Below are positions 10,799 to 63,969 of a stretch of DNA of 64,000 bases, in pieces. The translations under genes were made by a program, and so were the position numbers. The stretch's first letter is position 1; the number at the start of each line of letters is the position of its first letter. The notes below the pieces were generated by a model. That model made no database searches and had not been told where the DNA came from. It saw only the letters and a program-made list of their open reading frames with translations. This stretch comes from Pelosinus sp. UFO1 (GTDB lineage: Bacteria > Bacillota > Negativicutes > DSM-13327). The stretch lies in NCBI RefSeq assembly GCF_000725345.1, contig NZ_CP008852.1, forward strand, positions 3,526,001-3,590,000. Direction: 5' to 3'.

Positions 10799-10855
10799 AT
10801 GAGTCAGGGGACGGTTCTATGACTCACTTAGTTCTTTAACCATATTTTATCTATT
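10799..10855. repeat. GAGTCA-arm palindrome with conserved tail
   Basis: GAGTCAGGGGACGGTTCTATGACTC followed by ACTTAGTTCTTTAACCATAT; the same tail follows the palindrome at 42770. Confidence 0.75.
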
Positions 10856-10860
10856 TTTTA

Positions 10861-10948
10861 GAAGCATCGGGGACGGTTCTCTTGCTTCCAAAATTGAATT
10901 ATACCTTCTTAAAAATAAAAGAAGCAGCGGAACCGTCCCACTGCTTCC
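10861..10948. repeat. Type-E inverted pair, copy 1
   Basis: GAAGCATCGGGGACGGTTCTCTTGCTTC and the inverted partner GAAGCAGCGGAACCGTCCCACTGCTTC. Bases 10867-10948 are identical to 29069-29150 (82 of 82 by eye). Confidence 0.85.
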
Positions 10949-11784: not shown

Positions 11785-11843
11785 CATGGGGACGGGGTTA
11801 TTGACACCAACCTTGGGTGAATTGTCGACAACCCCGTCCCTGC
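11785..11843. repeat. Type-G inverted pair (RAYT-linked palindrome family)
   Basis: GGGGACGGGGTTATTGACACC faces GTCGACAACCCCGTCCC. This is the palindrome family found right after the RAYT gene at 20060; a second pair is at 22321-22384. It abuts the truncated IS256 fragment. Confidence 0.8.
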
Positions 11844-19285: not shown

Positions 19286-19560
19286 TAGCGAGTCAGGGGA
19301 CGGTTCTTCGACTCATTAAAGACGATATCCCATATTTCTATCCTATTTACCATTAAAATCCAAAACTCCAGCAAGGCTAGGCTGCTTTTCAGGAGTTTAT
19401 CGTATATATTGTTTTTTGATCAGCTCTAACTATTGTCTATTCCTCTATTTTCATTGCATGGCAGTGACAGAGGGGACGTTCCTTTTTGTCAACAAAAAAT
19501 CAAAGGAACGGTTTTACTAAGCAAATTTTGTTTCCCATATAATTAAAAGCTTCTCTTCGA
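19286..19560. repeat. Type-A variant and type-D copy 3
   Basis: GAGTCAGGGGACGGTTCTTCGACTC with the type-A spacer and 3' hairpin up to about 19400; then GTGACAGAGGGGACGTTCC at 19463-19517. A stray piece of type-A spacer (CAGTATCCCATATTAG) ends at 19580. Confidence 0.75.
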
Positions 19561-19610
19561 AAAACAGTATCCCATATTAGATAAATGTTCATTAAAGTTT
19601 AAAGCATCTT

Positions 19611-19961
19611 TCATCCTTTGTCTTTATGAATTCGTTTCCCTCCAAAAGCATGAATTGTTCTCGTTCCCGCAATACACTTTCCCCCTTGTACTGTTCCTTT
19701 CGGAATAAAGAGTTCATCACCTGCATTTAGAACAAATTCTTGTCCGTTCATAGTAACAGTATATTGTCCACAAACACAAACCATATACTCATCAAATTCA
19801 TGTTTATGTTCTTTAGAGATTTTATCAGAATAGCATGTCCAGAAAGCCATTTGACTACCATCTTCACCTTCAAAAAAATACCCGTCAATATCCTTTGTAT
19901 TTTGTTGATTACTACTAATATGATTTTTCTCATTTTTCATAAACTCTGGGAAATCTTTCAT
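19611..19961 (-). CDS. Single-domain cupin protein
   Basis: 116 residues. The metal-binding cupin motif is HKHEFDEYMVCVCGQYTV (His, His, Glu), with the second motif GDELFIPKGTVQG. Small cupins can be sugar-binding, isomerase or regulatory proteins. AGGAGGTAGTAGCA precedes ATG 19961. No operon partner. A typical bacterial small cupin by length. Confidence 0.8.
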   Translation of the reverse strand: MKDFPEFMKNEKNHISSNQQNTKDIDGYFFEGEDGSQMAFWTCYSDKISKEHKHEFDEYMVCVCGQYTVTMNGQEFVLNAGDELFIPKGTVQGGKCIAGTRTIHAFGGKRIHKDKG

Positions 19962-20028
19962 TGCTACTACCTCCTATCTCTTTCTATGAAAATTTATCTA
20001 CGGATCTCTCCGTTAATCACAGGAGCGG

Positions 20029-20057
20029 TGTCAAGGGGACAGGGTTGTTGACACCCT
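20029..20057. repeat. RAYT-linked palindrome
   Basis: GTGTCAAGGGGACAGGGTTGTTGACAC begins 4 bases after the RAYT stop codon: arms GTGTCAA/TTGACAC around the GGGGACAGG core. Confidence 0.85.
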
Positions 20058-20059
20058 TT

Positions 20060-20644
20060 TTATGCTTTTAAAACAACACCTCTATTAATGCCGGTGAGTC
20101 TTTCGATTTGCCGAATTGATAAGTTATGTTTCTGCTTAAGCATTCTTAAGTACGTATTTCTTGTTTGACAATCAAGTTGCTGTAAATCTATCGCATTTTT
20201 TAAGTTACATACCTTCTTGATTATAACTCTTGCTTCTTCGTCTCTAGTGCGCTGCTTGGCTTGATCATCAATATCTAAGCATTCATGCTCACTCATATCA
20301 TTGGTATATTTGATAAACTTTTGTATTGCCTTTTCTGTTTCGTCGCTCATCATTTCAAGTAGAAAATCTACATCTATTAAATCTGCTTGGTTTATATATT
20401 CTTGAAAACTGCTCCATTTATATTCTTCAACGCATTTTACAAGTCCCGCTTTGACTGGATTCTGATGAATATATCTTTGCACTATTTGAAAATATTGATC
20501 GTCTTCTACTGGTTCACTTTTAAATCGGTCTTGAAACAGATTACCTACTCTCTGATATTTAGTATTATACCAGTACACATAGCTTCCACATAGCCGGCGC
20601 ATTACTTGTTCTAAGGTCTCTATACCTATCTTCATCAACAGGTG
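20060..20644 (-). pseudogene. RAYT (REP-associated tyrosine transposase), N-terminally truncated
   Basis: The remaining 194 codons read HLLMKIGIETLEQVMRRL, YNTKYQRVGNLFQDRFKSE (with the strand-transfer Tyr region normally further on), RYIHQNPVKAGLV and YKWSSFQEYI, the second half of a Y1/IS200-like RAYT, followed by a C-terminal helix-turn-helix LSIRQIERLTGINRGVV. The first His of the HUH motif and about 90 upstream residues are missing. A GAGTCAA-arm palindrome replaces them from 20645. The apparent start TTG at 20638 is only the Leu codon after the last His. Probably inactive. Confidence 0.85.
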
Positions 20645-20645
20645 C

Positions 20646-20880
20646 GTGAGTCAAGTGACGGTTCTTTGGCTCACCTTTACAAATTTTTATTATTACTTAT
20701 TTCCCATAAACATACAAAACTCCTGCCAAATTCATACAGAAGTTGGCAGGAGTTTTCCGCCGTTTGACCTGATACGATTCTGCATATCAGGTCAAACGGT
20801 AAATATTTTAAGAATATACTACACTGAACAGGGGTTTGGCACGGCGATCCGTGACCTTGCAAATCCACCCTATTTTTCGT
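20646..20880. repeat. Type-A variant and type-H element
   Basis: GAGTCAAGTGACGGTTCTTTGGCTC, then the hairpin AACTCCTGCCAA.../TTGGCAGGAGTT, and type H GGCACGGCGATCCGTGACC, in which CACGG/CCGTG pair perfectly. The rest of 20881-20997 holds nothing recognisable. Confidence 0.75.
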
Positions 20881-20997: not shown

Positions 20998-21939
20998 TTA
21001 AAAGTCCTGACAACAGTCACAATTCAAAACTAAACTTGCTGATACACCAGCGTGATCGGAAGGCCACAGTCCTGTACTAGTCCGACTATCCTGCTTATCT
21101 CCTACCAAATCTGCCTCTATCGGCTCCCAACCATTTTTAAACAAAATAAAGTCTATTCTGCTGTTTAAACCTGACATTGCATTTAACAGATCAGGAGCCT
21201 GACAACAGGTAAATCCCGGTCCTATTCCGACCTCTTTCCATACATCATGAAAACCTGCATTGATAAATATCCCGTATGTTGGTGTTCCGCTACCGTCGGC
21301 GTTTGAGTTTAAATCACCCGTAATAATAACGGGCAGCTCTGTATTGGCAGGTCCCGCCAATAGTTCCTCCGCTTGTTCAACCTGAATGTTGGGAGCGTTG
21401 GGTTCCAGATGAGTGTTTATCATCCTGAAAATATTTTCGTCCAACTCAACGTCAACGGAGGACCATCCTCGAAGTATTACAAATGGCTGTCCCGCGATCT
21501 GGACCGTCAGATTGGCTTTGTAATTGGCTTCTTGCTTATCGACAATCTTATGCTCATATCTCTTGCGGACCAATATTGCGTCCCGGTCCAAGAACCGAAC
21601 CAAATTTCCGTTGCTGTCTGGAAGCTCCGCCGAAAAGTTCCGGTTTTCGACAGCGATCATGTACTCTAAACCTATTTCTTCCAGCTCAGTCAGCAATAAC
21701 TGTACAAAGTCATAGGTAACTATTCGAAAATTCGGGATTACCAGTTGCCACAACTCCGCTTCTTGCAGTCCAATAAAATCAGGTTTCTTCGCAGCGATTT
21801 CACAAGCAATTTTCTTCACTCGGACAGGAAAATTGGTCGCAAGAAATTGCCGAAACACTTCGGTTACTCTTTCGGGGAGTTGAGCTGGCGTAGCGGTTAC
21901 TATCGGCGTAAAATCCGCACCATCATACAGATTCCACGT
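20998..21939 (-). CDS. Endonuclease/exonuclease/phosphatase family protein, start unclear
   Basis: Conserved EEP blocks: TWNLYDGADFTPI (catalytic Asn), DFIGLQEAELW (Glu), INTHLEP, VIITGDLNS (Asp, Asn) and WPSDHAGVSASL (Asp, His). The first block lies upstream of the only standard start in frame (GTG 21858). The frame remains open to a TAG without ATG, GTG or TTG. An ATG at 21962 in another frame gives MTFVVRF directly before it, so a one-base frameshift or sequencing error near 21940-21945 is likely. Substrate could be DNA, a phosphoinositide or another phosphodiester. Confidence 0.75.
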   Translation of the reverse strand, partial: TWNLYDGADFTPIVTATPAQLPERVTEVFRQFLATNFPVRVKKIACEIAAKKPDFIGLQEAELWQLVIPNFRIVTYDFVQLLLTELEEIGLEYMIAVENRNFSAELPDSNGNLVRFLDRDAILVRKRYEHKIVDKQEANYKANLTVQIAGQPFVILRGWSSVDVELDENIFRMINTHLEPNAPNIQVEQAEELLAGPANTELPVIITGDLNSNADGSGTPTYGIFINAGFHDVWKEVGIGPGFTCCQAPDLLNAMSGLNSRIDFILFKNGWEPIEADLVGDKQDSRTSTGLWPSDHAGVSASLVLNCDCCQDF

Positions 21940-24842: not shown

Positions 24843-24859
24843 TTTTTGATCAGCTCGAT

Positions 24860-24984
24860 GAGACGCGGGGACGGTGGTTGTGTCTTATTAACTAAATCCC
24901 TTTATTTGCTCCAGTTACCCTAATTATCGTATAGACTAACCTTCTTATCATACGGCAAGACACTACCACCGTCCCCATGTCTTA
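24860..24984. repeat. Type-F inverted pair, copy 1
   Basis: GAGACGCGGGGACGGTGGTTG.GTCTTA at the left and AAGACACTACCACCGTCCCC.TGTCTTA at the right, about 80 bases of conserved spacer between. The same 125-bp unit recurs at 63845-63969 with a few differences. Confidence 0.85.
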
Positions 24985-42615: not shown

Positions 42616-42766
42616 GGAAAAGGGGACAGGTCCTTTGACACTTGCACCTTTCTTACCATTTCACGGTTTAGTTCCAATGTCTCCGCAATCCCCCTTAGGG
42701 ACAAGTTGGATTTTTCCATCAGAAGCTTTATCAGTTCCTCTCTTAGCGATTTATTGCCTATGAAGA
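42616..42766 (-). repeat. Type-B repeat with the longest RAYT-B C-terminal remnant
   Basis: Read on the minus strand it encodes FIGNKSLREELIKLLMEKSN, LSLRGIAETLELNREMVRKV and QVSKDLSP, the C-terminal helix-turn-helix of a RAYT, running into the GGGGACAGGTCCTTTGACA core. Confidence 0.8.
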
Positions 42767-42769
42767 AGC

Positions 42770-42876
42770 GAGGGGACGGTTCCATGACTCACTTAGTTCT
42801 TTAACCATATTTTATCTATTTTTTATAAAGTAGCAATTTACGGATGTAGAGTCAAAGAACCGTCCCCTGACTCTTA
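42770..42876. repeat. GAGTCA-arm inverted pair
   Basis: GAGGGGACGGTTCCATGACTC at the left, the tail ACTTAGTTCTTTAACCATAT shared with 10825, and GAGTCAAAGAACCGTCCCCTGACTC at 42849-42873, which overlaps the end of the ECF gene. Confidence 0.8.
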
Positions 42877-63810: not shown

Positions 63811-63969
63811 ATGTCAAGGGGACAGGTCCTTTGACACTTGGACGGAGACGCAGGGACGGTGGTTGTGTCTTATTAACTAAATCCTTTTATTTGCTCCAGT
63901 TACCCTAATTATCGTATAAACTAACCTTCTTAGCATACGGCAAGACACTACCACCGTCCCCGTGTCTTA
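63811..63969. repeat. Type-B palindrome and type-F inverted pair, copy 2
   Basis: TGTCAAGGGGACAGGTCCTTTGACA then, at 63845-63969, GAGACGCAGGGACGGTGG ... AAGACACTACCACCGTCCCC, a 125-bp copy of 24860-24984. Confidence 0.85.

Follow-up and report, generated by a model that had tools for sequence, protein, structure and literature searches.

How a transposase gene comes to begin in the middle of its own catalytic motif, in direct contact with a palindromic repeat, is the question raised by a short locus in the 64,000-nucleotide stretch of DNA analysed here (the window), which spans positions 3526001-3590000 of the single 5,115,410-base contig of Pelosinus sp. UFO1 (genome G000). An initial annotation, made from the window alone, had proposed that one repeat family inactivated the transposase of another. 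Our comparison with related genomes favours a different history: the gene is probably a dead piece lying where a rearrangement joined DNA at the edge of a palindrome, and an unstable zone of ~160 kb contains many such junctions.

A truncated transposase gene

The minus strand of the window carries, at 20060..20645, what is left of a REP/TIR-associated Y1 transposase gene: its 3' portion, which runs from the second His of the HxH motif to the stop codon and lacks residues 1-61. The open reading frame itself (20060-20638, minus strand) encodes 192 amino acids; the in-frame upstream reading is T-H-L-L-M-K-I-G, with the second-His codon at 20642-20644. Alignment with five full-length relatives (252-266 aa) confirmed the truncation and its starting point, the first conserved residue being the second His of N-H-[VI]-H, at residue 62 of about 253. 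HxH is present in all five relatives, and an HUH motif is missing from the remnant, which begins at the second His. The Y---N motif is kept as RYIHQNP, with Y59 and N63 invariant in the same alignment, and on the strength of this motif its Tyr is presumably the catalytic one.

Named relatives of the gene are found in Lucifera butyrica, Sporomusa sp. KB1 and S. malonica, the Lucifera protein sharing about 74% pairwise identity with the remnant. Against the NF047646 model (cut-off 80 bits), the full-length Lucifera protein, the closest named one, scores 83.6 bits, the intact transposase of G000 74.7, and the remnant 44, with a match over residues 26-76 only. Judged from its sequence, the remnant is a descendant of the RAYT/TIRYT family and not a working member of it: having lost the first catalytic His, it is very probably inactive, and without HxH it should not cut DNA. 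It also lacks a start region.

The reading frame has stayed open over its 192 codons, and a leftover DNA-binding role is possible from the sequence. Of the C-terminal helix-turn-helix that characterizes TIRYT subclass 2.1, the intact G000 gene shows a match to HTH_23 (E 0.0033, below the Pfam cut-off) and the Lucifera protein none. A promoter search for the remnant gave matches at chance level only. Pairwise dN/dS against relatives ranges from 0.06 to 0.26, values that mostly mirror the functional past of the gene, and the remnant-specific changes (two non-synonymous and two synonymous in 102 codons) do not decide whether the truncated frame is under selection as a regulator.

The palindromes on either side

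Beyond the 3' end, which is intact as first described, the gene's own terminal palindrome of type H (20027..20055, plus strand; GTGTCAA..TTGACAC, loop GGGGACAGGGT) starts four bases past the stop. At the break, a single base (20645) separates the His codon from a type-F palindrome (20646..20674, plus strand), whose core GACGGTTC is directed away from the gene and whose outer (left) edge is the one in contact with it. This palindrome is imperfect, 29 nt long (GTGAGTCAAGTGACGGTTCTTTGGCTCAC), with 9-nt arms that include one G-T wobble; its hairpin folds at -4.5 kcal/mol as DNA versus a shuffle mean of -2.0, a modest excess, 7 of 200 shuffles folding equally well. Further right (20675..20756, plus strand), 20698-20726 resembles the end of an A/F element body and is followed by a hairpin with 18-bp arms at 20716-20756. 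The left flank (19326..20025) consists of a cupin gene and a repeat body, matching the sister species G006 at 92.6%.

Full-length genes of the genus and of the named relatives have clade-specific arms around a common GGGAC core, with clades H, A, D, E and F distinguished: GTGTCAA marks the clade of the remnant, and ACTCAAA, GGGACGA, AAGCGAG and GAGTCAG mark others. The palindrome at the break carries type-F arms, GAGTCA..TGACTC, rather than the commoner ACTCAAG arms; such arms flank the clade comprising loci L035, L036, L079 and L080, and the palindrome is therefore that of another transposase clade. The initial annotation had thus correctly seen that the arms differ from those of the gene, while its assignment to a type-A-like family has to be replaced by type F.

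Palindromes are dense in the window: our detector found 50, compared with 14 when the sequence was reversed and 3-6 per shuffle over ten shuffles, so the mere nearness of one to a gene is unremarkable. Abutment is unusual: only 4.7% of the noncoding positions of the surrounding zone lie that near a same-strand core. The palindrome at the break is single, not one of the close inverted pair that defines a REPIN. Elsewhere in the window, REPIN-like inverted pairs of families E, C and H were observed at 10855-10947, 24857-24983, 63845-63968 and 11789-11840, and a hybrid palindrome at 42765-42794 combines an AAGCGAG-family left arm with a type-F right arm and tail.

The missing N-terminal part

If the type-F palindrome had simply inserted into the gene, as first proposed, the other part should lie beyond it. 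The far side of the break holds neither the N-terminal half nor the 5' palindrome of the remnant gene. With the N-terminal 67 residues as query, matches were obtained in all eight genus genomes; the sole match in G000 is its only intact transposase gene (398012-398770), which belongs to a different clade from the remnant. Since the genome has no N-terminal remainder of the gene, simple insertion is insufficient. Insertion followed by a later, unrelated deletion of the N-terminal part would still account for the outer edge lying flush with the gene and for the foreign arms; it requires two events, and we regard it as unlikely. Of the view that one repeat family inactivated the transposase of another, the truncation and the foreign arms at the break stand, and the insertion leaves the absent N-terminus and 5' palindrome unexplained.

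The initial annotation placed the break exactly inside the HUH motif; this position is incidental and marks no target preference, as other breaks occur at residues 72 (KB1), 100 (L079) and 227 (L048) of the respective genes. In KB1 (L008:2900-3080), an independent 5' truncation has left an open frame of 189 codons and a break without any palindrome. A similar truncation without a repeat, which the initial annotation had named as evidence that would refute its reading, thus exists in a relative, but at a different locus and eight to ten codons further in; it indicates that a palindrome is unnecessary for such a truncation and, being at another locus, does not show that the remnant itself arose without one. 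The truncated gene L079, in genome G003, is of the type-F clade; it has type-F palindromes on either side and begins two bases past one that matches its own type.

Two further degraded copies in G000 were observed. L047 (G000:C1:3369046-3369289), an internally deleted copy of the same transposase element, has kept its two terminal palindromes and, in the space between, about 13 codons from the N-terminal and 33 from the C-terminal end, resembling a miniature element. At L048:1660-1760 (G000:C1:3511659-3511759), exactly where another remnant of this gene breaks off, a 40-bp terminator-like hairpin apparently interrupts the loop of a palindrome.

A palindrome-rich zone with recurrent flush junctions

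The window belongs to a zone of ~160 kb within G000:C1:3506001-3694000 that contains almost every copy of several palindrome families with a GGGAC loop, with very few exceptions on one strand, together with accessory genes whose order is shuffled with respect to G006. Over the whole genome, exact copies of two arm families (20/20 and 13/13) all lie at 3.511-3.670 Mb on the plus strand. A looser arm pattern gave 40 matches, 31 of them at 3.511-3.694 Mb (29 on the plus strand) and nine elsewhere, mostly as inverted pairs. Taken over every family that the detector found there, the palindromes of the zone lie mainly but not entirely on the plus strand, GGGAC-type cores numbering 103 on the plus and 46 on the minus strand; genes lie on both strands. 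Ten 20-kb control stretches outside the zone yielded six weak detector matches, none with a GGGAC core.

Within this zone, the remnant is one case among many. Its family is represented in the zone of G000 by four fragments of the 3' end (45, 50, 124 and 618 bp), all of which reach the left arm of a palindrome from another family with a gap of 0 to about 5 bp; this count is restricted to G000 and leaves out a G006 copy (g6 13313) that ends 14 bp before the next palindrome. For a second transposase family, 10 of the 17 zone copies are flush with another palindrome, or 7/13 when repeated junctions are counted once; the seven of 17 ends that are not flush count against a rearrangement. Flush ends were scored by eye from the junction sequences, and neither cross-family matches (arr 60393, 129854, g6 51112) nor continuation pieces (arr 110972, 127468) entered the copy count. 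Such an event is not peculiar to this gene: across the zone, transposase fragments often end flush with palindromes of several families.

The same junctions bear on the possibility that an old pseudogene simply decayed at random in a palindrome-rich region. The density of palindromes and the KB1 copy, similarly truncated without one, speak for such a coincidence; when the two families are pooled, 11 of 17 independent junctions are flush, against the 4.7% expected from noncoding zone positions (binomial tail 2e-11, with positions treated as independent and some ends judged by eye), and we consider coincidence very improbable. The second family also bears on the insertion of a palindrome, since simple insertion should often leave right-hand remainders: among its 28 copies in G000 and G006, no separate right-hand piece was found, the palindrome (left) edge being fixed in 28/28 and the right ends ranging between reference positions 25 and 330. 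Among 13 fragment loci of the genus outside the zone, only 2 have a flush palindrome, and this counts against a rearrangement at the palindrome edge.

Comparison with the sister species

G006 contains pieces of the zone that are 92-98% identical and differently ordered, yet orientation is kept in 391 of 393 matches (most matches being repeats). We probed 98 palindromes between G000 and G006 and retained the 11 sites whose unique left flank could be aligned in the other species, leaving out a G006 row in a conserved coding stretch (94128) and a reciprocal duplicate (g6b 16864). At six of these 11 sites the sister has no palindrome, and homology ends at the outer edge (within about 3 bp) in five, one of which depends on a 44-bp flank, and 11 bp before it in the sixth; the sequence directly past the palindrome differs at all six. 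At site arr 101975, G000 has the continuation seen in the sister 12.8 kb further to the right, as might be expected from simple insertion or deletion of a block, and the site is counted against a rearrangement at the edge.

At the other five sites, a palindrome is present in both species and divergence lies beside it. The remnant locus is among these: the cupin gene is followed in G000 by the type-H palindrome and the remnant, and in G006 by a different palindrome (GGGACAAG..GGCCC) and another gene, with no transposase. The cupin gene is matched in six of ten family genomes, closely in G006 only, and the neighbouring exonuclease/phosphatase-like gene (20998-21858) in two of ten, G000 being one of them. 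An uninterrupted gene at the remnant locus, which the initial annotation had suggested seeking in relatives, was looked for and found in no species, a further point against the rearrangement.

How the junctions may have formed

In the history that we favour, a rearrangement with a breakpoint at the outer edge of a same-strand palindrome from another TIRtron clade would have deprived a TIRtron-type gene of codons 1-61 and of the 5' palindrome. The palindromes of the zone would mark junctions between shuffled pieces, the outer edges of their hairpins being preferred breakpoints, and we infer that the palindrome edge caused the break.

Our favoured cause, put forward tentatively, is cleavage of single-stranded DNA by a RAYT/TIRYT-type HUH enzyme on the outer flank of the hairpin, followed by joining elsewhere. 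Weighing against this route, the sole intact transposase gene of G000 is of another clade. In E. coli, TnpAREP is described as cutting single-stranded DNA at a dinucleotide that flanks the REP hairpin on its 5' or 3' side and as able to join the cut DNA to another strand (available text of PMC8266576). By analogy, a TIRYT might cut at the type-F hairpin and join it to a site within the remnant gene, or rearrange an earlier insertion, the rest being lost.

The main rival, which we find doubtful, is replication slippage or template switching: polymerase would stall at the hairpin base and the new strand realign, giving a one-sided deletion without any transposase and a polarity set by the direction of replication. 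One-strand polarity in itself fits both HUH cutting and slippage. Every junction indeed has the same polarity and lies at the hairpin base, and in the closed 5.38-Mb relative G001, among the matches listed, repeats and transposases are on the minus strand at 8/9 places below 2.5 Mb and on the plus strand at 17/17 above 3.4 Mb, a pattern suggestive of a link with the direction of replication. Weighing against slippage, the window junction has no obvious microhomology, and slippage alone leaves unexplained both the different palindromes at the same place in two species and the rarity of flush fragments outside the zone.

A broader proposal is that the zone works as an integrase-less, cassette-like array, in which TIRYT hairpins lying on one strand would offer their outer edges as joining sites and edge-to-edge units would be exchanged and moved with orientation kept, the enclosed genes, transposases included, being cut flush at the next hairpin. 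We consider this rather improbable. In integron cassette arrays, too, shuffled gene units at a fixed place in the chromosome are separated by hairpin sites on one strand, whereas the genes of the present zone lie on both strands. No IntI scored above the TIGR02249 cut-off in any of eight genomes, and the zone is therefore not classed as an integron.

Relation to known elements and significance

The elements agree with the TIRtron concept of Di Nocera et al. (2013, PMC3733652, in its available text), in which a Y1 transposase with HUH and Tyr lies between inverted repeats; terminal repeats are present at both ends in the relatives, and the remnant retains the 3' one only. The published TIR motif, GGGGWSAS, accommodates GGGGACAG in the 3' palindrome of the window and is not strictly matched by GGGGACGG of other copies. 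TIRtrons probably correspond to subclass 2.1 of Quentin et al. 2018 (PMC6006769), whose genes are described there, in the text available, as having no REP-like sequences nearby. The present elements differ from TIRtrons, as far as the available account goes, in having self-complementary, multi-copy terminal repeats with clade-specific arms, massed on one strand in one zone.

As in the RAYT/REPIN system (Bertels and Rainey 2011, PMC3116915, available text), short palindromes would depend on a single-copy HUH transposase, and inverted pairs are found here too (families C, D, E and H); REPs are GTAG-tagged in that system, no such tag was noticed here, and single one-strand copies dominate the zone. 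Members of IS200/IS605 share the Y1 fold (PF01797 matches the full-length relatives) and a single-strand, strand-biased behaviour (available text of PMC6006769), but the NCBIfam IS200 model gives 18.7 bits, far below its cut-off of 55. Helitrons, by the accessible part of PMC4778049, also have a hairpin near the element end that marks the end of transfer, and capture gene fragments; being eukaryotic and of another HUH class, they offer an analogy only.

A literature search returned no paper on repetitive extragenic palindromic sequences in Sporomusa, nor on RAYT/REPIN in Firmicutes. The available text of the TIRtron/TIRYT accounts (PMC3733652, PMC6006769) makes no mention of truncations at foreign repeats, and that of the TIRtron and REP sources cited here gives no account of self-complementary clade-specific ends, one-strand crowding or flush junctions. 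In the portions available of PMC8266576 and PMC3733652, the spread of REP/TIR hairpins and any reshaping of the chromosome by them are described as unresolved.

By itself, a truncated gene is ordinary decay; the point of interest is the recurrence of flush junctions, which suggests that the hairpins mark sites of DNA breakage and rejoining. Such junctions would be a sequence-level signature of hairpins of domesticated or mobile HUH transposases setting the breakpoints of rearrangements. With its several families of clade-specific arms crowded on one strand, and sister species for comparison, the zone would allow tests of how such hairpins spread and of whether they reshape the chromosome.
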